Source of the DNA: Verrucomicrobiia bacterium
GTDB taxonomy: Bacteria > Verrucomicrobiota > Verrucomicrobiia > Limisphaerales > JADLHS01
Length of the DNA stretch: 64,000 nt
NCBI GenBank assembly: GCA_011525685.1
Contig: WYBW01000094.1
Location: forward strand, 1 to 64,000
Direction: 5' to 3'
A model generated the notes under the pieces. That model did not search any database and was not told the DNA's origin. It saw nothing but the letters and a program-made list of their open reading frames with translations. Positions 7,873 to 24,823 of the stretch are shown in pieces. Made by a program: the position numbers and the translations under genes. The stretch's first letter is position 1. Each line of letters starts with the position of its first letter.

Positions 7873-8328
7873 TCAGGAGCTTGAAGGCTTCAGCAGTTCG
7901 GTCAGTTTCTTTGCCCGGAACGCGAAGATTCGCTCGACATCGGGACGGACCAGCCACCGATGCACCAGTGCGCCGCCCGGCGCCGCGTAACGAACGTGAT
8001 CCGAGCACAGCGTTCCACCGCCCTTCGGCTCGAACCGATGTTCGTGAACCCACAAGCGATACGGCCCGCGCTGTTGCTCATCCACGAACCGATGCGGCGG
8101 TTGCCAGGCGGTGATTTCTGTGCGCCATCGGATTGGCCAACCGTGTATGCGAAGTTGATAGTCAATCAGGGTGCCGGTTCTCATCTCAATCGGCAAAGGC
8201 GTCAGTATCCTGAACCTCAGCCAGGCCGGGGTGATGGTCTCGAGATTTTGCGCATCCGAGAAGAAGGCAAACACCTTTTCAATTGCGGTCGGCAGCCAGA
8301 GTTCAGAATCAAAGTTGAACACTTTCAC
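7873..8328 (-). CDS. SRPBCC-family ligand-binding protein
   Basis: Protein of 151 residues starting at a GTG (8328); longer starts would overlap the divergent gene at 8383. It has the START/SRPBCC helix-grip pattern. The beginning SELWLPTAIEKVFAFFSDAQNLETITP leads into hydrophobic beta strands (GTLIDYQLRIHGWPIRWRTEI) and a C-terminal amphipathic helix ending RIFAFRAKKLTELL. The family binds hydrophobic ligands, and many members (CDP-paratose epimerase-like) have no known function. It is divergent from the YgaP-like membrane protein, with a 54-base shared promoter space. Confidence 0.75.
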   Translation of the reverse strand: MKVFNFDSELWLPTAIEKVFAFFSDAQNLETITPAWLRFRILTPLPIEMRTGTLIDYQLRIHGWPIRWRTEITAWQPPHRFVDEQQRGPYRLWVHEHRFEPKGGGTLCSDHVRYAAPGGALVHRWLVRPDVERIFAFRAKKLTELLKPSSS

Positions 8329-8382
8329 GCGGCAAACTGGCGCCTGATTTGCCGGCGCGCAAAGGCGTGCTAAACGTTTTCC

Positions 8383-8592
8383 ATGAAAAACTTTTTCCGC
8401 CGCAATCTGGACGGCCGCGGTCGTGCGGTGCGGGCCTTGGCTGGTTTGGCGTTGTTGATCGGCGGGTTGTTTGCCTGCCCGCACAACCTTTGGCTGGCAA
8501 CCGCTTTGATCATCTCCGGCGGATTCGCTTTGTTCGAGGCGGCACGCGGATGGTGCGTGATGCGGGCCTGCGGCATCAAAACGAAGCTTTAA
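8383..8592 (+). CDS. YgaP-like inner membrane protein (DUF2892)
   Basis: Small protein of 69 residues with a basic N-terminus (MKNFFRRNLDGRGR) and two closely spaced transmembrane helices (ALAGLALLIGGLF and WLATALIISGGFALFEA). It ends in a cysteine-containing tail, WCVMRACGI. This matches the YgaP-type transmembrane domain, which also occurs fused to rhodanese domains; no rhodanese is present here. Its end faces that of the CarH-like gene, 17 bases apart. Confidence 0.75.
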   Translation: MKNFFRRNLDGRGRAVRALAGLALLIGGLFACPHNLWLATALIISGGFALFEAARGWCVMRACGIKTKL

Positions 8593-8609: not shown

Positions 8610-9536
8610 TCAGTTTTGCGGCATTCTCAGTTGCTCGAGAATCGGGTAAAGTTCCCGCAAATCTTTCGCCCGCAGTGCCCCGATTTTTTGCAGCGCTGAC
8701 CGGTAGGAATCCGCCGCGCGGCCGCCGGCGATCACCTTGATTTCGTCGGGGAGATACTTGCGCAAGTTTTCCAGTTCGACCGGAAGATTTGGGTCATCGC
8801 CCGGAAACACCAGGCTGAGGGCCACGGCGCGCGCCTTGTTTTGCAGGGCGGCACCGGCGATTTCCACCGCCGGCAAACTCGTGCCCAGGTAGATCACCCG
8901 CCAACCCATGTCATTTGCCGCCGCCGCCGCCATGACCGCTCCCAGCTCGTGAAGCTGCCCGGCGGGTGTCGCGACCACCATCGTCGGCGTGTTGCCGTTC
9001 AGCGCGTAAGGCTTCGAGTTGCGGATGAGAAAATTGCGAATCACGGCGCTGGCAAAATGCTCATGCGCGGCGGTAATTGTCCCGTCACGCCACAAATCTC
9101 CAATCTTGACCGCCAGTGGACCAATCACGTTTTCCAACATGCCGTGCGGTCCATGCGCTACCGCCGCTCGGCTGAGGATATCTTCCAACTCGGCAGCGTT
9201 CAGGTTTCTCGCCGCCTTCAGCGCCGCCTCGACGATGTCTTCCGCCGACCGCGCACTGGGTCTCACTGCGGGCTGCGGCGCGGGTAACGATTCCTCGACC
9301 AGTTTCCGAAGCTGTTCGGTAGGGAGTCGGGCCACGTTTCCAATGCTGTGACCCGCTTCCGTGGCCAGGCGCAATAAATTCAGGCGCTGAATCTCCTCTT
9401 CGGAGTACAGGCGCCGGTTTGTATCCGTTCGGTCAGGTGAAACCGCGTCATAACGCTTTTCCCATATCCGGATTACGTGGGTGGTCAAACCGCAGCGTCG
9501 GGCTGCAACTTTGATTGAGTGTTGGACTTCTGCCAT
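8610..9536 (-). CDS. carH: CarH-like MerR regulator with B12-binding domain
   Basis: Regulator of 308 residues. The N-terminal MerR helix-turn-helix is at about 6-75 (IKVAARRCGLTTHVIRIWEKRY). A four-helix B12-cap domain and a Rossmann cobalamin-binding domain follow. Hallmarks of CarH photoreceptors are visible: W149-x9-E159-H160 in the cap and the lower-ligand histidine H196 in QLHELG. In CarH, adenosylcobalamin makes a DNA-binding tetramer in the dark and light breaks it, releasing the promoter. The gene is divergent from a sigma factor plus carotenoid operon, which fits that role. The ATG at 9536 is preferred over an upstream ATG at 9578 because family members start just before the HTH. 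B12 sensing without light is the main alternative. Confidence 0.85.
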   Translation of the reverse strand: MAEVQHSIKVAARRCGLTTHVIRIWEKRYDAVSPDRTDTNRRLYSEEEIQRLNLLRLATEAGHSIGNVARLPTEQLRKLVEESLPAPQPAVRPSARSAEDIVEAALKAARNLNAAELEDILSRAAVAHGPHGMLENVIGPLAVKIGDLWRDGTITAAHEHFASAVIRNFLIRNSKPYALNGNTPTMVVATPAGQLHELGAVMAAAAANDMGWRVIYLGTSLPAVEIAGAALQNKARAVALSLVFPGDDPNLPVELENLRKYLPDEIKVIAGGRAADSYRSALQKIGALRAKDLRELYPILEQLRMPQN

Positions 9537-9700
9537 CTGGGAAAAGAATAGACAAAATATGAACAGAGCGCAAATCAAATTTCAAATCACGTTAATATTG
9601 AACTGTTTCCAAAGAAAAAGACTTCGCTTTACAAAGCTAAAAAATAATTGAACAAAAGTTTGACATCTCGGTCATAGTTAGACAAACTATGAACATGTTC
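9537..9700. promoter_or_regulatory. Divergent carH/sigma-factor control region with repeated operator-like sites
   Basis: AT-rich spacer unlike its GC-rich surroundings. The 17-mer TAGACAAAATATGAACA (9549-9565) recurs as TAGACAAACTATGAACA (9679-9695). Each holds two TnnACA half-sites exactly 11 bases apart (9549/9560 and 9679/9690). A third pair is at 9649 and 9660, and its second half, TTGACA (9660-9665), is also a -35 candidate. A palindrome TCATAGTT-AGACA-AACTATGA spans 9672-9692. For the minus strand, TTGAAA with TCATAT 17 bases on is a candidate carH promoter. As I recall, Thermus CarH binds 11-base direct repeats with a TnnACA core, so these are predicted CarH operators. Confidence 0.65.
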
Positions 9701-10783
9701 AATGGCAATTACCTCCAAACGGAGCTGGCAGACTGCGAAATCCGGCCACAGTCATCACCCCGGTCGCGCGCGGTCCGGCGGCGTTTCATTTCACCCCCAG
9801 CCTTGGCGTTGCGCACACCGCGCCGGGTGACAGTCCCGAAAGCCCCGACCAAGAGCAGGTCACAAGACGCGGGTAGCAGATTGTTTCAAGACGCGACCCT
9901 CGGTCCAGCCAACAGGGCGACCGAGGATACGGCCAGTTTCGTGCGGCCTCCCTCGGAATCCGATTCCATCCTGTCCATCTATTTGCGTGAAGCCAGCGAA
10001 GTAAAGCTGCTGTCGCCGGCGGAGGAGGTCGAACTGGCCGCGCGCATCCAGGCCGGTGATGAGGCCGCGCGGGAGCACATGATCCGGGCCAATCTTCGTT
10101 TCGTGATCAAGGTCGCGAGAGAATATGAGCACTTGGGCATGCCGCTGCTGGATTTGATCAACGAAGGCAACATCGGGTTGATGAAGGCGGTGGAGAAATT
10201 TGATCCCTCCAAGGGAGCCAAGTTTTCCAGCTATGCTTCGCTGTGGATCAAGCAACAGATTCGCCGCGCTCTTGCCAGCCAGGGAAAAACCATCCGTCTG
10301 CCGATTCATGTGGCCGACAAGATTTACCAGTTGGGCCAGGCAGAGGCCCGGCTGCGCAGCTTGCTGGGCCGCGAGGCCACGGATGAGGAACTGGGACATG
10401 AACTTGGCGTAAAGACCGCGAAGATCGCCAAGCTTCGCCGCGCCGCCATGCGTCCGGCTTCCTTGGACGCCCCGGTGAGCGGCGACAACGAAAGCCCGGT
10501 CGCCGAAGTGATTGCCGATGAAAATGCCGTTTCGCCCTTTGAGAAACTGCGTGACCAGACCGAGACGAAACTCATTCGGAAGCTGGTGGACAAGCTTCCC
10601 GAACGCGAGGCGAAGATCATCCGGTTTCGCTTCGGGCTGGATGGCAGCAGTGAGCGCACATTGGAAGAGGTGGGCAGCAAATTGAACCTGACCCGCGAGC
10701 GTATCCGGCAGTTGCAGAATCTCGCATTCGCGCGACTCCGGCGGATGCTCGAAGAACCCAGCGCCATGCCGATCGCGGCGTGA
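9689..10783 (+). CDS. RpoD-like group 2 sigma-70 factor
   Basis: Sigma factor of 364 residues with a poorly conserved basic N-terminal extension of about 85 residues. Region 1.2 follows (SILSIYLREASEVKLLSPAEE), then region 2 (ANLRFVIKVAREYEHLGMPLLDLINEGNIGL, with FSSYASLWIKQQIRRA for the -10 element), region 3, and region 4 (LPEREAKIIRFRFGL to LTRERIRQLQNLAFARLR). It lacks the long region 1.1 of the housekeeping factor. It is the first gene of the carotenoid operon and divergent from carH, so it may transcribe pigment or light-response genes. The ATG overlaps the operator palindrome, so the mRNA could be nearly leaderless. Confidence 0.88.
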   Translation: MNMFNGNYLQTELADCEIRPQSSPRSRAVRRRFISPPALALRTPRRVTVPKAPTKSRSQDAGSRLFQDATLGPANRATEDTASFVRPPSESDSILSIYLREASEVKLLSPAEEVELAARIQAGDEAAREHMIRANLRFVIKVAREYEHLGMPLLDLINEGNIGLMKAVEKFDPSKGAKFSSYASLWIKQQIRRALASQGKTIRLPIHVADKIYQLGQAEARLRSLLGREATDEELGHELGVKTAKIAKLRRAAMRPASLDAPVSGDNESPVAEVIADENAVSPFEKLRDQTETKLIRKLVDKLPEREAKIIRFRFGLDGSSERTLEEVGSKLNLTRERIRQLQNLAFARLRRMLEEPSAMPIAA

Positions 10784-10818
10784 GTCCCATCAGAAGCCAA
10801 CCATTAACAACCAACACC

Positions 10819-12375
10819 ATGACCAAAGAGGTAATCATCATTGGCGCCGGTCCGGGCGGGCTGGCTTCCGCCATCTTGCTCGCCGCAGCCGGATTGCGAG
10901 TGAAGATCATCGAGCGGCTTCCGATCATCGGCGGTCGGACTTCCACCATCGAAGCCGATGGCTACAAGTTCGATCTCGGCCCCACGTTTTTTCTCTACCC
11001 CCGTGTATTGGATGAAATCCTGCGCGCCGCGGGCACAAGTCTCCAGCGGGAAGTGGAGATGGTGCGGCTCGATCCGCAGTATCGCATCGCCTTCGCGAGT
11101 GGGGGACATCTGGATTGCTCGCCCAACATCACCGACATGGAGCGTCAAATCGAGGCTTTGTCGCCGTCGGATGCCCCGAATTTCAAGAAGTTCCTCGATG
11201 AGAACCGGACCAAGCTGGCGCTCATGGAGCCATGCCTGGAAACCCCGTTCCATGGTTGGAAGGACGTGTTCAACCGCCGTTTGCTCCAGTTGTTGCCGTG
11301 GCTGCGCCCCCATCAATCCGTGGACGACTACCTCAAGCGCTTCTTCACCGACGATCGCGTGCGGTTGGCCTTTTGTTTCCAATCCAAGTATCTGGGCATG
11401 TCACCGTTCCGTTGCCCGAGCCTTTTTTCCATCCTCTCCTTCCTCGAGTATGAGTACGGCGTGTGGCATCCCATCGGCGGTTGCGGCGCGGTAACTCAAG
11501 CGATGGCCCGGGTCGCCGAGCGCCTCGGGGTCGAAATCCGCCTCAACGAACCGGTCGAGGAAATTCTCTTTGCCGGTCGTCGGGCAGTCGGGGTCCGCAC
11601 CGCCACCGGCACACATCGAGCCGACTCGATCGTGGTGAACGCCGACTTCGCGCGGGCCATGACGCGGCTCGTGCCCAACCATCTGCGCCGCCGCTGGACC
11701 AATGAAAAGCTCGCGCGCAAGAAGTTCTCCTGCTCCACGTTCATGATGTATCTCGGGGTCGAAGGGGAATTTGATCTCCCGCATCATACGATTCACATTG
11801 CCGGCAACTACTCGAAGAATCTGGACGACATCGAGCGCCGGCATGTGCTCAGCGAAGATCCCAGTTGCTATGTCCAGAACGCCTGCGTCACCGACCCGAC
11901 CCTCGCGCCCAAGGGACACAGTGCGCTTTACGTCCTTGCACCCGTTACGCACCAGCACGCAAACGTGGACTGGGACAAAGAGAGGGAGGGCTTCCGCGCC
12001 CGATTGCTCCGCCAGATCGCCAAAATCGGCTATACGGACCTTGAGCGTCGAATCCGATATGAGCGCGTCATCACGCCAGCCGACTGGGACACGCGCTATG
12101 AAATCCACCGCGGCGCGACCTTCAATCTCGCCCACAGCCTTGATCAGATGCTGCACCTGCGCCCGCACAACCGATTCGAGGACCTGGACGGGGTTTATCT
12201 GGTCGGCGGCGGCACGCATCCTGGCAGCGGATTGCCGGTCATTTTCGAGTCCGCCCGCATCTCCTCGAAACTGCTGATCGAAGACTTGGGAGTGTCCGCC
12301 GCTGATGCGCTCCCGACTCACCTTCAACCAGCCGCCAGCGCGGCGGCCAACCCCCATGAAGCCCTTCATCGCTGA
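10819..12375 (+). CDS. Carotenoid desaturase/oxidase, CrtI/CrtN/CrtP family (first copy)
   Basis: FAD enzyme of 518 residues. The dinucleotide-binding motif is at the N-terminus (IIIGAGPGGLASAILLAAAG, then IIGGRTST). The substrate-domain opening YKFDLGPTFF is typical of phytoene/dehydrosqualene desaturases. The C-terminal signature reads VYLVGGGTHPGSGLPVIFES. With a second paralogue, an aldehyde dehydrogenase and a glycosyltransferase in the same operon, this copy could be the terminal oxidase (CrtP-like) or the desaturase; sequence reading alone cannot decide. It starts 36 bases after the sigma factor and its end overlaps the aldehyde dehydrogenase start by 20 bases. Confidence 0.88.
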   Translation: MTKEVIIIGAGPGGLASAILLAAAGLRVKIIERLPIIGGRTSTIEADGYKFDLGPTFFLYPRVLDEILRAAGTSLQREVEMVRLDPQYRIAFASGGHLDCSPNITDMERQIEALSPSDAPNFKKFLDENRTKLALMEPCLETPFHGWKDVFNRRLLQLLPWLRPHQSVDDYLKRFFTDDRVRLAFCFQSKYLGMSPFRCPSLFSILSFLEYEYGVWHPIGGCGAVTQAMARVAERLGVEIRLNEPVEEILFAGRRAVGVRTATGTHRADSIVVNADFARAMTRLVPNHLRRRWTNEKLARKKFSCSTFMMYLGVEGEFDLPHHTIHIAGNYSKNLDDIERRHVLSEDPSCYVQNACVTDPTLAPKGHSALYVLAPVTHQHANVDWDKEREGFRARLLRQIAKIGYTDLERRIRYERVITPADWDTRYEIHRGATFNLAHSLDQMLHLRPHNRFEDLDGVYLVGGGTHPGSGLPVIFESARISSKLLIEDLGVSAADALPTHLQPAASAAANPHEALHR

Positions 12376-13867
12376 GCCACCCCAGCATTTGAAAGTGTCA
12401 GCGTTGGCCGAAGGCGACCAATTCCTCTTCGATCCCGCTTCGGCGTGCGCGGAGTCGCGCCGCGCGCAACTCGCCTGGGGGTGGACTTCGGTCTCTGCGC
12501 GGCTGCAAGTCATCCGTCGCTTTCGGCTGATGCTGGCCGAGCAGGCCGGCTCGGTGGCCAGCTTTGCCGTTGGCGAAAGCCGCCGCTCCATTGGGGAAAT
12601 TTTGAGTGCCGAGATCATTCCTTTGGCGGATGCGTGCAGGTTTTTGGAGCGCCGGGCGGAAAAGCTCCTTTCGGTCCGGAGGGTGGGGCGGGTCGGACGC
12701 CCTCTGTGGTTGGGCGGAGTCAAGGCCCTCGTGCGGCGTGAACCTTTTGGTCTGGTGCTTGTGGTTGCGCCCTCCAACTACCCGTTGTTTCTGCCCGGCG
12801 TGCAGGTCCTGCAGGCGCTGACCGCTGGCAACGCCGTCCTGTTGAAACCGGGTCCAGGAGGGGCGCCGGCGTGTAACGAGCTCGCCCGATTGTTTAACGT
12901 CGCGGGCCTCCCGGCGTCGCTGTTGCGCGTTCTTCCCGAATTGCCCGAATCCGTTCACGCGGCAATCCAGGCTGGCGTGGACAAAGTTTTCTTCACCGGC
13001 TCGGCGCACACCGGCGTCAAGATTCTTGCCGAACTCGCGCCCCGCGCCGTGCCTTCGGCCATGGAACTGTCAGGCTGTGACGCCGCGATCGTGCGCGCGG
13101 ACGCCGACTTGGACTTGGCGGTGCGCGCCCTGACGTTCGGCCTGCGTCTCAACTCCGGCCGGACTTGCATTGCGCCGCGGCGGGTCTATGTGACGCGCTC
13201 CGTGGCCACGGAATTTGAAGGGCGGCTGGCGCAGGCACTGTCGGCCTGTTCCCCGGTGACGATCGAGCCTTCCCTCCAGCAAAGGCTCATGCCCTTGCTG
13301 CTGCAGGCGCTTTCACCTGGCGCCCACCTGCTCGCGGGCGAGATCCAGCGCGACGGGCGGATCATGGGTCCGGTGGTCGTGGCGGGGGCCAAACCCGGTT
13401 TGCCGCTTTTGCGCGAGGACATTTTTGCGCCGCTGCTCACGGTCTTGACCGTGGCAGATGACGAGGAGGCCGTGGCTCTCGCGAACGATTGTCCCTATGC
13501 CTTGGGTTCAACCATTTTCTCCAGGGATGAACATCAGGCCCGCGCTTTGGCGACGCGGCTCAATGCGGGCGTGGTCATCATCAATGATCTTATTGCTCCC
13601 ACGGCCGATGCCCGGTTGCCTTTTGGGGGACGCAAACTCAGCGGCTTCGGTTTGACGCGCGGCCCGGAGGGCTTGCTCGAAATGACGACCACCAAAGTGG
13701 TCATCGAGCGTCGCGGCAAGGCCCGGCCTCACTACGCTCCACTGCATCCGGCCGACGCCGACCTCTTTCAGCAATACTTGACGCTGGCACACGGGCGGAA
13801 CTGGCGGCAGCGGCTGGCCTCGCTGCGAAAAATTTTGGTCAACGTTGCACGACGCAAAAAATCATGA
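12356..13867 (+). CDS. Aldehyde dehydrogenase of the carotenoid operon (AldH-like)
   Basis: NAD(P)-dependent aldehyde dehydrogenase of 503 residues. The general base E237 lies in MELSG and the catalytic C271 in SGRTCIAPRR, at the standard 34-residue spacing. The cofactor loop FTGSAHTG and the C-terminal GGRKLSGFGLTRG motif are present. In the staphyloxanthin pathway AldH oxidises the terminal aldehyde of the C30 carotenoid to a carboxylate; the same step is inferred here from the neighbours. The start overlaps the preceding gene, and the stop overlaps the next start as ATGA, indicating translational coupling. Confidence 0.88.
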   Translation: MKPFIAEPPQHLKVSALAEGDQFLFDPASACAESRRAQLAWGWTSVSARLQVIRRFRLMLAEQAGSVASFAVGESRRSIGEILSAEIIPLADACRFLERRAEKLLSVRRVGRVGRPLWLGGVKALVRREPFGLVLVVAPSNYPLFLPGVQVLQALTAGNAVLLKPGPGGAPACNELARLFNVAGLPASLLRVLPELPESVHAAIQAGVDKVFFTGSAHTGVKILAELAPRAVPSAMELSGCDAAIVRADADLDLAVRALTFGLRLNSGRTCIAPRRVYVTRSVATEFEGRLAQALSACSPVTIEPSLQQRLMPLLLQALSPGAHLLAGEIQRDGRIMGPVVVAGAKPGLPLLREDIFAPLLTVLTVADDEEAVALANDCPYALGSTIFSRDEHQARALATRLNAGVVIINDLIAPTADARLPFGGRKLSGFGLTRGPEGLLEMTTTKVVIERRGKARPHYAPLHPADADLFQQYLTLAHGRNWRQRLASLRKILVNVARRKKS

Positions 13868-15171
13868 AAGCAAGCCGCTTAAATTCTCAATTTCTCCGTC
13901 TCGTGACCTTCGGTGGTCTGGTTGCGGGTCAACTCGCGTCCGCACAGTTGACTGCCACCGACTGGCCTCAATGGCGCGGGCCGGCCCGCGACGGCACGGT
14001 TTCCGGCCCGGCGTGGCCGGTGGATTTTGCCAGCCATCCTCCAGTACAACTGTGGCGCGTCAAACTCGGCCCGAGCTACTCCGGCCCAATCACCTGGTCA
14101 AACCTCGTGTTTACGACCGAAACCGTCGGCAAGTCCACCGAGGTGGTGTCGGCTTTGGATCGTCAAACCGGCCGGCAGGTGTGGCGCGCGGAGTGGCCCG
14201 GCGCGATGAGCGTCCCCTTCTTTGCCAAATCCAACGGGGATTGGATTCGCGCCACGCCGGCCTGCGACGGCGAAAGTCTCTTTGTGGCCGGCATGAGAGA
14301 CGTGCTGGTGTGCCTGGAGGCACGCACCGGCCACGAACGCTGGCGACATGACTTCGTGCAGGAACTCGGCACCCCGCTGCCCGCGTTCGGTTTCGTTTCA
14401 TCACCGCTGATTGATGGCGACGCGGTGTATGTTCAGGCCGGCGCCGGTGTTGTGAAACTCAACAAACGCACCGGCCAGCTTCTCTGGCGTTCGCTCACTG
14501 ACGAAGGGGGAATGTTTGGCAGCGCTTTCTCCTCTCCGGTGATGGCCACCCTGGCCGGCCAACGTCAGTTGATTGTTCAGACCCGGGAAAAGCTCGCCGG
14601 CGTAAACCCGGTGGATGGTGCTGAACTGTGGTCGCAGAAGGTGGAAGCTTTTCGCGGCATGAACATCCTGACCCCGGTCATACATGACGATCTGGTGTTC
14701 ACCAGCACCTATGGCGGAAAATCCATCGGGTTCAGGGTCGGCGTGGCTGACGGCCGGTTTGTGGTCACCCCGGCTTGGACGCAGAAATCCCAGGGCTACA
14801 TGTCCACTCCGGTGGTCCATGACGGCGTGGCTTATCACCACTTGCGCAGCCAGCGCGTGATGGCCATTGAACTGGCGACTGGTCGCGAGTTGTGGACCAG
14901 CGAGGAACGATTCGGGAAGTACTGGAGTCTCGTGGCGCAGGGTGACCGCGTGCTCGCACTGGATGAGCGCGGCTGGTTGTTTCTGCTCCAGGCGAACCGT
15001 GACCGAATGGTCATCGCCGATCGCATCCGCATCAGCGAAGCCGAGGCCTGGGCGCATCTGGCGGTCAGTGGCGACGAACTGTTCGTTCGCGAACTGAACG
15101 GCCTGACGGCCTACCGCTGGAGTGGCGGCAGTCCTCCCACCGCGGCCCTTCCGACAAACCAAAACCCTTGA
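13864..15171 (+). CDS. Exported PQQ-like beta-propeller protein
   Basis: Protein of 435 residues with a signal peptide (LVTFGGLVAGQLASAQ, cleavage near residue 28), then repeated PQQ-type blades. The blades show recurring patterns such as WPQWRGPARDG, LDRQTGRQVWRAEW, LEARTGHERW, LNKRTGQLLWRS, VDGAELWSQKV and ELATGRELWTSEE. The fold resembles BamB and PQQ dehydrogenase propellers. It lacks any obvious catalytic quinoprotein features, so it is more likely a scaffold or binding protein. It sits in the middle of the carotenoid operon with coupled starts on the upstream side. No known carotenoid pathway uses such a protein. Confidence 0.82.
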   Translation: MKASRLNSQFLRLVTFGGLVAGQLASAQLTATDWPQWRGPARDGTVSGPAWPVDFASHPPVQLWRVKLGPSYSGPITWSNLVFTTETVGKSTEVVSALDRQTGRQVWRAEWPGAMSVPFFAKSNGDWIRATPACDGESLFVAGMRDVLVCLEARTGHERWRHDFVQELGTPLPAFGFVSSPLIDGDAVYVQAGAGVVKLNKRTGQLLWRSLTDEGGMFGSAFSSPVMATLAGQRQLIVQTREKLAGVNPVDGAELWSQKVEAFRGMNILTPVIHDDLVFTSTYGGKSIGFRVGVADGRFVVTPAWTQKSQGYMSTPVVHDGVAYHHLRSQRVMAIELATGRELWTSEERFGKYWSLVAQGDRVLALDERGWLFLLQANRDRMVIADRIRISEAEAWAHLAVSGDELFVRELNGLTAYRWSGGSPPTAALPTNQNP

Positions 15172-15194
15172 AACCAACACGACAAACCAACTCC

Positions 15195-16769
15195 ATGAAA
15201 AGCAACCAATCCCATCCCATCGGCGTCATTGGCGGCGGTCTCGCCGGACTCGCATCCGCTTGCACCCTCGCCGCGCGCGGCCACTCGGTCATTCTGTTCG
15301 AAGCCAATCCCTGGTTGGGCGGCAAGGCCGCCGAACTCCAGGAGGCTGGATTCCGTTTCGACATGGGCCCGACCATTCTCACGCTGCCCTCGGTCCTGCG
15401 CCGCATTTTTGCCGAGGCCGACCGGCGCGTGAGTGATTATCTCGAGCTGGTCAAACTCGAGCCCCAATGGCGGTCCTTCTTCGAGGACGGCAGCACCCTG
15501 GACCTCGTCTCCGACGACACGGCGATGAGCCACAACCTCGACCGCTTCGCGCCCGGAGGCCGCGTCAGCGCCGGTTACCGCAAGTTCATGGCGCTCGCCA
15601 AACGGCTCAACGACATCTCGCAGCGGTTTTATTTCTACAAACCCATCGGTGGTCTGCGCGACATGTTCAACGCGCGGAACACGTTCAACCCCGGCACCCT
15701 TGGCGACGTGCTGGCCATGCGCATGGGCCGCAGCGTGGCCGGGACGATTCGTTCCCATGTGCCCGATGAGCGGGTGGCCCAGATGCTGGATCATTACACG
15801 CAGTATGTCGGCTCGTCGCCCTTGAACTCACCCGCGGTGCTGTGCGGCATCGCCCACATGCAGACCGACGAAGGGGTCTGGTATCCCATTGGCGGCACGC
15901 GCGCTGTGCCGGTGGCGCTGGCCAAGCTGGCCCGGGAATTGGGCGTGCAATTCCGCACCGGCATTCAGATCGCGAAAATCCTCGTCGAGGAGGGACGCGT
16001 GACCGGGGTGATGACCGATCGCGGCGAGCGCATCGCTCTCAGCGCGGTGGTTTCGAACATGGACGCCGTCCGCACGCATCGCGAGTTGATCGGCGGAGAG
16101 ATTGGCCGGCGCTTCGAGGCGCGGCGGGAATATGAACCCGCCTGCTCCGGCGTAGTGCTGTATCTCGGGCTGAAGCAGCGTTACGAACACATCGCCCATC
16201 ACAACTTCGTCTTCTCCCGCGACCATGAGGAGGAATTTGAGGCGATTTACGACCGGGGCGAACCCGCCCCCGACCCCACGGCGTATCTCTGCGCGCCTTC
16301 GCAGACCGAGCCGGCGGTCGCTCCCGAGGGTGGCGAGGCGCTTTACGTGCTGGTTCACACGCCTTATCTGCGGGCGCACCACGATTGGAAACAGATGCTG
16401 CCCGCCTACCGCCGCACCATCCTGGAAAAGCTCAAGCGCACCGCGGGCATGGAAGACATCGAGCAGCGCATCGTGTTCGAGCGCGTGCTCACGCCGCGGG
16501 ACATTCACGACCGTTACCGCGTGTTGAACGGCGCCATTTACGGGCTGTCCAGTCACGGCAAGTTTCTCGGCGCGTTCAAACCCGGCAACCGCAGCCCGGA
16601 CGTGAGCGGATTGTATCTGGCCGGCGGCGCGGCGCATCCCGGTCCGGGAATGCCCATGGTCATGATGAGCGGCTGGATCGCGGGCGACACGCTCGACCGG
16701 GATGGCATTTCAACCGCCTCCCGTAACCGAGCTACAATGAGCTACCAACCGGAACTTGCCGCTGCCTGA
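15195..16769 (+). CDS. Carotenoid desaturase/oxidase, CrtI/CrtN/CrtP family (second copy)
   Basis: FAD enzyme of 524 residues paralogous to the one at 10819. It has the nucleotide-binding motif IGVIGGGLAGLASACTLAARG followed by WLGGKAAE and FRFDMGPTILTLPSVLRRIF. The mid-domain has GVWYPIGGTRAVPVALAKLA, and the C-terminal flavin motif is GLYLAGGAAHPGPGMPMVMM. It is a good candidate for the dehydrosqualene/diapophytoene desaturase (CrtN-like), but oxidase and desaturase roles cannot be separated here. An in-frame TTG at 15168 overlaps the previous stop; the ATG at 15195 is the conservative start. Confidence 0.87.
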   Translation: MKSNQSHPIGVIGGGLAGLASACTLAARGHSVILFEANPWLGGKAAELQEAGFRFDMGPTILTLPSVLRRIFAEADRRVSDYLELVKLEPQWRSFFEDGSTLDLVSDDTAMSHNLDRFAPGGRVSAGYRKFMALAKRLNDISQRFYFYKPIGGLRDMFNARNTFNPGTLGDVLAMRMGRSVAGTIRSHVPDERVAQMLDHYTQYVGSSPLNSPAVLCGIAHMQTDEGVWYPIGGTRAVPVALAKLARELGVQFRTGIQIAKILVEEGRVTGVMTDRGERIALSAVVSNMDAVRTHRELIGGEIGRRFEARREYEPACSGVVLYLGLKQRYEHIAHHNFVFSRDHEEEFEAIYDRGEPAPDPTAYLCAPSQTEPAVAPEGGEALYVLVHTPYLRAHHDWKQMLPAYRRTILEKLKRTAGMEDIEQRIVFERVLTPRDIHDRYRVLNGAIYGLSSHGKFLGAFKPGNRSPDVSGLYLAGGAAHPGPGMPMVMMSGWIAGDTLDRDGISTASRNRATMSYQPELAAA

Positions 16770-16807: not shown

Positions 16808-17797
16808 GTGATAAAACCGATGACCACGGATAACCTCATGAAACTCGAGCCAGCCACTGCGTGCTCCGGCTCGATGGCTGCCCGCAACGCTGACTCTGCC
16901 TCACCGAACTCATCGCCGCAGTTGCCACTTGCCAGGTCCGCGTCGCACATCGGCGGTTTGGAGCACAAAGATTCCGCTGGCTCGTGTTGTTCGACCAAGG
17001 CGGCGCCGATCAAACAGGCGGGGGAAGTCCCGCGCGTCGCCTCCTGGTTGGTGAGGCTGTTTGCCGGTTATTCGCGAGGTTACGTCCGAAGGCATTTTCA
17101 CTCGCTCCGGGTTTCGCGGGCGAGCGCGCTGCCGGACGAGCGGGGTCTGCCGCTGGTCATCTACTCCAACCATGCGTCCTGGTGGGATCCGCTGGTGGGT
17201 TTGCTGGTGGGGCGGGAATTTCTGCCAGGGCGGACCGTATTCGCCCCCATGGATGCCGCTGCGCTGGAGCGGTACGGATTCTTCAAGCGACTGGGCGCTT
17301 TTGGAGTGGAGCAGGGGACACGACGGGGCGCCGTTCAATTCCTCCGCACCGCTCGCGCGATTCTGCGGCACCCGGAGAACGTTCTCTGGCTCACGCCGCA
17401 AAGCCGGTTCGCCGATGTCCGCGAAAGACCCGCCGGGTTCAAGTCCGGCATCGGGCATCTGCCGAATCAGATTCATCGAGCCATTTTTCAACCGGTGGCC
17501 ATCGAGTATGTGTTCTGGGAGGAGCGTTTGCCGGAAATCCTCCTCCGCTTCGGCGAACCTTACGAGACGTGCGCCGGGGAGATGCAACTCGATCCGCGAG
17601 TCTGGACTGAATTCTTCGCGGGCAAGCTGACCGAGACGCAGGACGCGCTCGCCGCCGAGGCGCGGCAACGAAACGCCGCGAAATTCGATTGCCTGCTGCG
17701 CGGCGGGGCAGGGGTGGGACTCTTCTACGATGTTTGGCGGTCGCTGAAAGCAAAATGCCGCGGCCAGACGTTTCAACCGGAGCACGGAAAATTATGA
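16808..17797 (+). CDS. PlsC-like acyltransferase of the carotenoid operon
   Basis: Protein of 329 residues if read from the GTG at 16808; an ATG at 16820 is equally possible. The first 65 residues are low-complexity. The catalytic lysophosphatidate-acyltransferase motif HxxxxD is present as NHASWWDP, followed by a substrate motif region with FGVEQGTRRGAVQFLRTA. A hydrophobic PlsC end is weak. In staphyloxanthin synthesis a different acyltransferase (CrtO) esterifies the sugar; this protein could do the analogous last step. It overlaps the glycosyltransferase start as ATGA. Confidence 0.82.
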   Translation: MIKPMTTDNLMKLEPATACSGSMAARNADSASPNSSPQLPLARSASHIGGLEHKDSAGSCCSTKAAPIKQAGEVPRVASWLVRLFAGYSRGYVRRHFHSLRVSRASALPDERGLPLVIYSNHASWWDPLVGLLVGREFLPGRTVFAPMDAAALERYGFFKRLGAFGVEQGTRRGAVQFLRTARAILRHPENVLWLTPQSRFADVRERPAGFKSGIGHLPNQIHRAIFQPVAIEYVFWEERLPEILLRFGEPYETCAGEMQLDPRVWTEFFAGKLTETQDALAAEARQRNAAKFDCLLRGGAGVGLFYDVWRSLKAKCRGQTFQPEHGKL

Positions 17798-18975
17798 ACC
17801 TCGACTCACTTGCCCTTGTCGCGCTGATCCTCGCCGCCATTCCATGCGGGCTTTTCCTGCTGAACCTGGCTTTCTACCGCCGACTGCGACTGAGTGATTC
17901 CGAGTCCAAGCCAGTCGTTGCGGGGACTCCCAGTTCGAGCGCGGTCTCGGTGTTGATTCCGGCGCGGAACGAGGAGTCCAACCTCCGGGGCACATTGGAA
18001 TCCGTGCTGGCCAACCGCGGCTTGGACTTCGAGGTGGTGGTGTTGGATGACCACTCCACGGATCGCACGGTGGAGATCGTGGAGGAGTTCGCGGCCCGCG
18101 ACGAGCGTGTCCGGTTGGAACGCGCTCCCGCCTTGCCGGCGGGTTGGTGCGGCAAACAACACGCTTGTCATGTGCTGGCCCGGCGGGCGCGGCATCCACT
18201 GCTGGTATTCATGGACGCCGACGTCCGGTTGTCGCCGGACGCGCTGGCGCGGATGGCCGGCTTCATGTTGCGCCGGGATGTGGCGCTGGCCAGCGGCGTT
18301 CCGCGTCAGGAACTTGGCACGTTCTCGGAACGGTTGCTCATCCCGCTGATTCATTTCGTGCTGCTCGGCTACCTGCCGATGTTCATGATGCGGTGGACGC
18401 GCCGTCCGGCTTTCTCGGCGGGGTGTGGCCAGCTCTTCATTGCTCGCGCGGACGCCTACCACGACTGCGGTGGCCATGCCCAGATCCGGACGACGTTGCA
18501 CGATGGCGTGAAGCTGCCCCGACTGTTTCGTCGGAATGGGTTCAAGACCGACCTGTTCGACGCCACGGACCTTGCGTCCTGCCGGATGTATCGCACCAAT
18601 GCGGAAACCTGGCAGGGGCTGGGCAAGAACGCGACCGAAGGGCTCGCTGCGCCGGGCGCCATCATCCCCATGTCGGTGTTCCTGTTTGGCGCACAGGTTC
18701 TGCCCTTTGTGCTGCTGGCGTTATCACCGTGGCTGAGTTCCAGCGGTATCGCTTGGGCGACAGCAGCAGGTCTGCTGGCCTACCTGCCGCGCCTGGTCGC
18801 GGTTGGAAAGTTTCGCCAGACAATCGGCACGGCCTTGCTGCATCCCTTGGGCGTGACCGCGCTGCTGGCGCTGCAATGGCTGGCGCTCGTCCGTTCGTTG
18901 CGCGGTCGGCCCTCGCAGTGGAAGGGTCGCAGTTATGGAACGGCGGGGGTGTCCCAACCGGCGAGGGCGGCATGA
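17794..18975 (+). CDS. Membrane glycosyltransferase family 2, CrtQ-like
   Basis: Protein of 393 residues: an N-terminal transmembrane anchor (LVALILAAIPCGLFLLNLAF), a GT-A catalytic domain with SVLIPARNEESNLRGTLES, VLDDHSTDRT and the metal-binding MDADV, then about three C-terminal transmembrane helices. This matches CrtQ of staphyloxanthin synthesis, which glucosylates diaponeurosporenoic acid. Here it would glycosylate a C30 carotenoic acid made by the upstream enzymes. The donor sugar is unknown; Rubritalea, another verrucomicrobium, is known for xylosyl esters of such acids. Both ends overlap neighbouring genes by ATGA. Confidence 0.85.
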   Translation: MNLDSLALVALILAAIPCGLFLLNLAFYRRLRLSDSESKPVVAGTPSSSAVSVLIPARNEESNLRGTLESVLANRGLDFEVVVLDDHSTDRTVEIVEEFAARDERVRLERAPALPAGWCGKQHACHVLARRARHPLLVFMDADVRLSPDALARMAGFMLRRDVALASGVPRQELGTFSERLLIPLIHFVLLGYLPMFMMRWTRRPAFSAGCGQLFIARADAYHDCGGHAQIRTTLHDGVKLPRLFRRNGFKTDLFDATDLASCRMYRTNAETWQGLGKNATEGLAAPGAIIPMSVFLFGAQVLPFVLLALSPWLSSSGIAWATAAGLLAYLPRLVAVGKFRQTIGTALLHPLGVTALLALQWLALVRSLRGRPSQWKGRSYGTAGVSQPARAA

Positions 18976-24265: not shown

Positions 24266-24823
24266 GTGAGCATTGTAACCAGAACCGGTGATCAAGGGAC
24301 GACGGCCTTCATGTACGGTCGGCGCGTGTCGAAATGCCATCCGCGGGTGGAAGCCTACGGATGCGTGGATGAACTCAACGCCGCCCTGGGCCTGGCGCGG
24401 GCAGCGGCGGCGCACGATTTCCTGCGCGAGCATCTGCTGACGATCCAGAAGGACCTCATCCTGCTCATGGGCGAACTGGCCACCGCCACGGAGGACCTGC
24501 CGCGGTACGTCAAGGACGGTTACTCCCTGGTCACCTCTCATTTGACCGCGAAGCTTGACAGTGTCATCCGGGAAATCGAGAGCCAGAAGGTTTCCTTCAA
24601 GGGCTGGGCCACGCCCGGGGCCAACCATTCCGCGGCCACGCTGGACGTCGCCCGCACCGTCTGCCGCCGGGCCGAACGCCGCGTGTGCGCGCTTCAGGAA
24701 TCCGGCCAGCTTCAAAACACCCAGATCATCATCTACCTGAATCGCTTGGCGGACTTGCTGTGGCTGTTTGCCCGCTGGGTCGAAACCCAGTTCGGCGACC
24801 CTGCTGCTCCCGCCTCCCGGTAA
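24266..24823 (+). CDS. PduO-type ATP:corrinoid adenosyltransferase
   Basis: Enzyme of 185 residues from the GTG at 24266. It forms adenosylcobalamin from cob(I)alamin and ATP. Family motifs: the N-terminal ATP site TRTGDQGTT, then RVEAYGCVDELNAALGLAR, PGANHSAATLDVARTVCRRAER and YLNRLADLLWLFAR. Length and layout fit PduO/MMAB rather than BtuR/CobA. AdoCbl is also the chromophore of CarH (14 kb away), so this enzyme may feed the light sensor. The TAA stop lies in the GTAACG border of a family B palindrome. Confidence 0.92.
   Translation: MSIVTRTGDQGTTAFMYGRRVSKCHPRVEAYGCVDELNAALGLARAAAAHDFLREHLLTIQKDLILLMGELATATEDLPRYVKDGYSLVTSHLTAKLDSVIREIESQKVSFKGWATPGANHSAATLDVARTVCRRAERRVCALQESGQLQNTQIIIYLNRLADLLWLFARWVETQFGDPAAPASR

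Follow-up and report, generated by a model that had tools for sequence, protein, structure and literature searches.

Three pairs of TnnACA half-sites, each pair with an exact 11-bp period, lie between a carH-type gene and a divergent sigma70 gene in the 64-kb window, by which we mean the whole stretch of DNA analyzed. These pairs are very probably the operator of the adjoining CarH-type B12 photoreceptor, through which carH and the sigma-carotenoid operon would be repressed in the dark and released in the light; both the binding and the light response are what we infer from sequence. The system is of a known kind, and what is new is the operator geometry together with the cobalt-ligand residues of the protein.

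Repeat pairs between carH and the sigma gene

The carH-sigma region holds the following features.

8613..9536, minus strand: carH, 308 aa, MerR DNA-binding domain plus two B12-binding subdomains (Wx9EH at residues 149-160, QLHELG at 194-199)
9545..9550, minus strand: candidate carH -10, TATTCT (TATTAT in relatives), by comparison
9549..9565, plus strand: predicted CarH direct-repeat pair 1, TAGACA-N5-TGAACA, carH side, between the candidate carH -35 and -10
9568..9573, minus strand: candidate carH -35, TTGCGC (TTGCnn conserved in a five-member family set, spacer 16-17)
9649..9665, plus strand: predicted CarH direct-repeat pair 2, TGAACA-N5-TTGACA, its second half-site being the candidate sigma-gene -35
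9679..9695, plus strand: predicted CarH direct-repeat pair 3, TAGACA-N5-TGAACA, offset by 19 bp from TTGACA, over the likely sigma-gene -10 and start codon
9683..9688, plus strand: candidate sigma-gene -10, CAAACT, 17 bp from TTGACA, taken from the logo of TTGACA sites
9695..10783, plus strand: sigma70 gene, regions 1.2, 2, 3 and 4, group-2-like, start by comparison

The initial annotation had described three TnnACA pairs at exact 11-base spacing (9549/9560, 9649/9660 and 9679/9690), and all six half-sites were found there on the plus strand: TAGACA at 9549, TGAACA at 9560, TGAACA at 9649, TTGACA at 9660, TAGACA at 9679, and TGAACA at 9690. When both strands of the window were searched for TNNACA-N5-TNNACA, the three pairs were the only matches, compared with a mean of 0.56 and a maximum of 2 in 100 shuffles of the window, none of which reached 3. 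Shuffling of the intergenic region (n = 5000) gave a mean of 0.011 pairs, and 0/5000 shuffles reached two. Across the genome (6.73 Mb), 42 matches were counted versus 30 with a reversed-pattern control, and the carH/sigma region was the sole case of a single intergenic region with three pairs. The other close group in the genome, on contig C184, consists of two overlapping matches on opposite strands, which would represent one palindromic site. Two further intergenic pairs were observed near porin-like and transporter genes (L011 and L125), and a plasmid search with the intergenic region as query returned no match.

The predicted operator combines the TnnACA core, 11-bp direct repeats and the single orientation that define CarH operators. 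The annotation had attributed such repeats to Thermus CarH, and PMC9304148 and PMC8156234 agree, giving the repeat consensus as nnnnTnnACAn (PMC9304148) and nAnnTnnACAn (PMC8156234). The window has no run of at least three contiguous repeats sharing a register, whether DR or degenerate dr; a 2+2 arrangement with a 19-bp slip was found instead.

Pairs 1 and 3 differ at 1 base in 17, in agreement with the two near-identical 17-mers noted previously. They had been placed over the -10 or start regions of both genes; pair 3 covers the likely sigma-gene -10 and the start codon, and pair 1 lies between the likely carH -35 and -10. Furthermore, the sigma start had been placed at 9689, whereas ATG 9695 is more likely, as it is conserved in the five-member set with synonymous changes after it, and ATG 9689 occurs in 2/5. 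A perfect 12-bp palindrome at this start codon (9690-9701, TGAACATGTTCA) contains two half-sites and is lost in some relatives. The predicted operator would overlap the target promoter, with TTGACA inside pair 2 and the -10 as presumptively assigned. In the five-member set, the candidate -10 is separated from the start codon by 6 nt for the sigma gene and 7-8 nt for carH, and these distances are compatible with putative leaderless mRNAs. A consensus promoter scan returned a different carH promoter (TTGAAA-18-CATATT) and no sigma-gene promoter; since the scan disagrees, the promoter elements of both genes are given as candidates only.

The carH-type protein

The carH product matched PF13411, PF02607 and PF02310, all above cut-off, showing that it has the MerR domain and the four-helix bundle/Rossmann B12 module of CarH. 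The best sequence match was Thermus CarH (3whp/5c8d), covering residues 12-300, with an E-value of 2.5e-22 for 5c8d. A single-sequence model (pLDDT 54) was dropped for an alignment-based one (pLDDT 85.7, pTM 0.64), with which Foldseek placed Thermus CarH structures on top. The rmsd was about 3 Å for the B12-binding domain and 10-20 Å over the full length, the latter as expected from the flexible linker. TransRegCarH was the best-scoring NCBIfam family, yet its equivalog cut-off of 400 was not reached (117 bits). The protein is therefore called CarH-type, a diverged relative and not an equivalog.

Sequence motifs were compared among 68 relatives. The recognition-helix motif RxWERRY reads RIWEKRY in the window protein and RxWE[KRQH]RY in 68/68. 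Wx9EH, which is WRDGTITAAHEH in the window protein, is kept in 67/68, as is the lower axial His, and the first position of the D/ExHxxG motif is Gln in 68/68 (QxHxxG). The residue after Trp, equivalent to Thermus His132, is Arg in the window protein and in 54/68, and His in 0/68. Its lack is not disqualifying, because this His is present in many but not all CarH proteins according to PMC9304148. W+9, next to Glu-His, is His in 65/68 and corresponds to His158 in the window protein.

Conservation and spacing of the repeats

A search of 96 relatives gave some match in 54, and 30 loci, window included, were examined. The closest named relative was a Verrucomicrobiia MAG, and the next matches were labelled Limisphaerales, Verrucomicrobia and Pedosphaera. 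Pairs with the 11-bp period were found at 27/30 loci, all of them in the direction of the divergent gene and 0 on the opposite strand, and amounted to 58 observed versus 0.22 expected. The set was enlarged by adding a scan of named genomes to the first loci, exact duplicates being removed by coding-sequence key and three near-duplicates by hand. Here, 53/64 verrucomicrobial carH upstream regions contained 11-bp pairs, and the 64 loci held 108 sense pairs and 1 antisense pair versus 0.49 in shuffles, although these loci are not fully independent because the MAG sequences are related. An exact 11-bp pair was absent at the other 11/64 loci and in all six non-verrucomicrobial relatives.

In the five-member family alignment, six of six half-sites were kept, and the spacer between them had diverged except for a GCAAA block and the first sigma codons. 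Pair 1 was conserved in L033-L036, L062-L064 and L088. The repeats are not chance, and the predicted operator design is conserved across Verrucomicrobiota. The annotation had named sites not conserved in relatives as grounds for rejecting the proposal, and the proposal withstood this check. The distance from pair 1 to pairs 2 and 3 varies among relatives; looping, which would depend on the helical phase between them, is thus not claimed.

The repeats depart from a tandem register. Among same-strand spacings beyond 11 in the 64-locus set, 19 occurred 37 times, 30 occurred 47 times and 41 occurred 21 times, compared with 19, 2 and 6 times for the tandem spacings 22, 33 and 44. Similarly, the offset from pair to pair was 30 in 13 cases, 22 in 1 and 33 in 0, and the 11 cases with an offset of 11 were runs of three. 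The promoter-side pairs are 8 bp out of tandem register, at an offset of 19 from the TTGACA half-site. Of the TTGACA sites, 24 have TnnACA at +19, a placement fixed by their selection, and the unselected features of these 24 were TAGACA in 24/24 and T at +28 in 88%; A was found at +24, and position +28 lies outside any half-site. We read TTGACA as the -35 and CAnnnT as a weak -10, 17 bp apart and built into the half-sites. The slip would be explained most simply by the need of the half-sites to supply also a -35 and a -10 at this distance. At L065, L078, L079, L091 and L044, half-sites 8 bp apart (TTGACAnnTAGACA) were observed, a distance that leaves no room for an 11-bp unit on each, and these may possibly be alternative registers. 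The slipped spacing (19/30/41 and not 22/33) is a difference from described CarH systems, and it was not found described in the portion of the literature available.

Carotenoid operon, further targets and proposed control

The sigma70 gene heads a cluster of carotenoid genes, and other genes of interest lie on either side.

7876..8484, minus strand: SRPBCC/polyketide-cyclase-like gene, downstream of carH and beside carH in many relatives
10780..12375, plus strand: CrtI-family desaturase 1 (TIGR02734, 539 bits, cut-off 238)
12305..13867, plus strand: aldehyde dehydrogenase (PF00171)
13864..15171, plus strand: PQQ/BamB-like beta-propeller protein, inside the cluster (PF13360)
15168..16769, plus strand: CrtI-family desaturase 2 (TIGR02734, 411 bits)
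17689..18975, plus strand: glycosyltransferase family 2 (PF00535)
24272-24781: PduO-type cobalamin adenosyltransferase, 14 kb from carH, the sole one found in the genome

The aldehyde dehydrogenase likely oxidizes a carotenoid aldehyde, judging from its context, and, taken with the CrtI pair and the glycosyltransferase, it would point to a carotenoid pathway that is acyclic and perhaps C30. As a cobalamin adenosyltransferase is encoded, AdoCbl can be made; in nine relatives searched, this gene was not on the carH contig.

A second target was indicated by another of the genome-wide matches, on contig C171, where the pair TAGACACAAATTTGACA (TAGACA-N5-TTGACA; L123:2092-2108) precedes a fasciclin-domain gene by ~200 bp. 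Such a pair was found in 7/7 fasciclin orthologues examined, and those of L138 and L139 are themselves in the carH-fasciclin intergenic region. About 20 loci have a fasciclin homologue divergent from carH at a distance of no more than 1.2 kb. In this genome, carH and the fasciclin gene have probably been separated, each retaining its operator, and the distribution of the pairs supports a putative small regulon of carH, sigma-crt and fasciclin. A short open frame, on the minus strand and between the fasciclin gene and its operator (L123, about 1890-2023), looked alike by eye in relatives (RFARP.YF.V..RV), and a leader peptide is possible. The crtI homologues of six genomes in which carH was not found had no pairs within ~1.5 kb. 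The operator-like fasciclin promoters of G004 and G007 imply that carH may be missing from their assemblies. A photolyase gene was rejected as a further target after 10 genomes showed no pairs in its neighborhood, although for L153, L155 and L156 the start of the gene upstream had not been found. In three relatives (G010:C473, G011:C63 and G008:C449), it shares a contig with carH at a distance of ~10 kb, with no CarH-like pairs near.

Thermus thermophilus CarH shares with the present system the MerR plus B12-binding architecture, the TnnACA core, the 11-bp direct repeats and a half-site in the -35 (PMC9304148). However, its operator consists of three contiguous repeats, in contrast to the 2+2 arrangement with a 19-bp slip and a further pair next to carH. 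In the same source, CarH/LitR of Bacillus megaterium has four half-sites over the -35/-10 of the main promoter, as here, although they are strictly tandem and not two pairs 30 bp apart. Myxococcales CarH/CarA resemble the present case in the variable repeat number, the degenerate copies, the TTGACA -35 inside a repeat, the carotenoid operon and, in some, the divergent promoters; 19/30/41 offsets are not reported in the available text (PMC9304148), and the target operon here is headed by a sigma70 gene. The window sigma has regions 1.2-4 and is not of the ECF type of LitS, which has regions 2 and 4 only. In Streptomyces coelicolor, LitR is linked with LitS. There, as here, a B12-type light regulator is combined with a sigma factor directing carotenoid transcription (reference in PMC9758184), but that sigma is of the ECF type and not a sigma70. 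A search of the open-access literature, subscription journals not covered, returned no paper that deals with CarH in combination with Verrucomicrobia or Planctomycetes.

Alternative explanations were considered. Protein divergence from Thermus, namely the absence of the His132 equivalent in 68/68 and Gln where the B12 motif has D/E, would fit a CarH-like protein that binds the sites and no longer responds to AdoCbl or light, as the B12-independent Myxococcus CarA, or that senses B12 status or oxygen. Thermus H132A was mostly still tetrameric after light in one study (PMC10442372), whereas earlier work reported disassembly. Nevertheless, such a loss of response is improbable, since Wx9EH, whose loss marks CarA, and the lower His are almost always kept, the W+9 His could stand in for His132, the operon is one for carotenoids and the genome encodes a cobalamin adenosyltransferase.

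It is less probable still, indeed very unlikely, that the repeats are mainly promoter elements and not repressor sites, TTGACA and TAGACA contributing to the -35/-10 of promoters recognized by the divergent sigma. TTGACA within a half-site, the invariant TAGACA at +19 in the selected sites and the T at +28 outside the half-sites would agree with this, but an exact 11-bp period in two to six repeats is no promoter signature, and repeats also occur next to carH, where they run against its transcription, and at loci without a flanking sigma. A recent local duplication without function would account for the single difference between pairs 1 and 3; it is refuted, with a negligible chance of being correct, by an arrangement conserved across genera and families, by different linkers and by the diverged surrounding spacer.

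Therefore, we prefer an operator of the adjoining CarH-type photoreceptor. In the dark, AdoCbl-loaded CarH would occupy the half-sites, all in the same orientation. Occupation of pair 1 would occlude the carH promoter, resulting in autorepression, and that of pairs 2 and 3 would occlude the -35, the -10 and the start codon of the sigma70 gene heading the carotenoid operon. Light would cleave the Co-C bond of AdoCbl and remove CarH from the DNA, after which the sigma factor and the carotenoid enzymes would be made. We consider only tentatively, and with some doubt, that verrucomicrobial CarH constitutes a distinct photoreceptor subclass, in which the W+9 His (His158) replaces His132 in a different light-driven cobalt ligand switch, and in which the split 2+2 operator is occupied by two units of the protein, each placed on its own, and has its register set by the 17-bp promoter spacer.

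With this operator, light control of carotenoids through B12 would extend to Verrucomicrobiota. The slipped arrangement would serve as a test of the flexibility of CarH-DNA binding, and these proteins, as naturally occurring CarH that lack His132, are relevant to the published dispute over the need for this residue in light-driven disassembly (PMC10442372).
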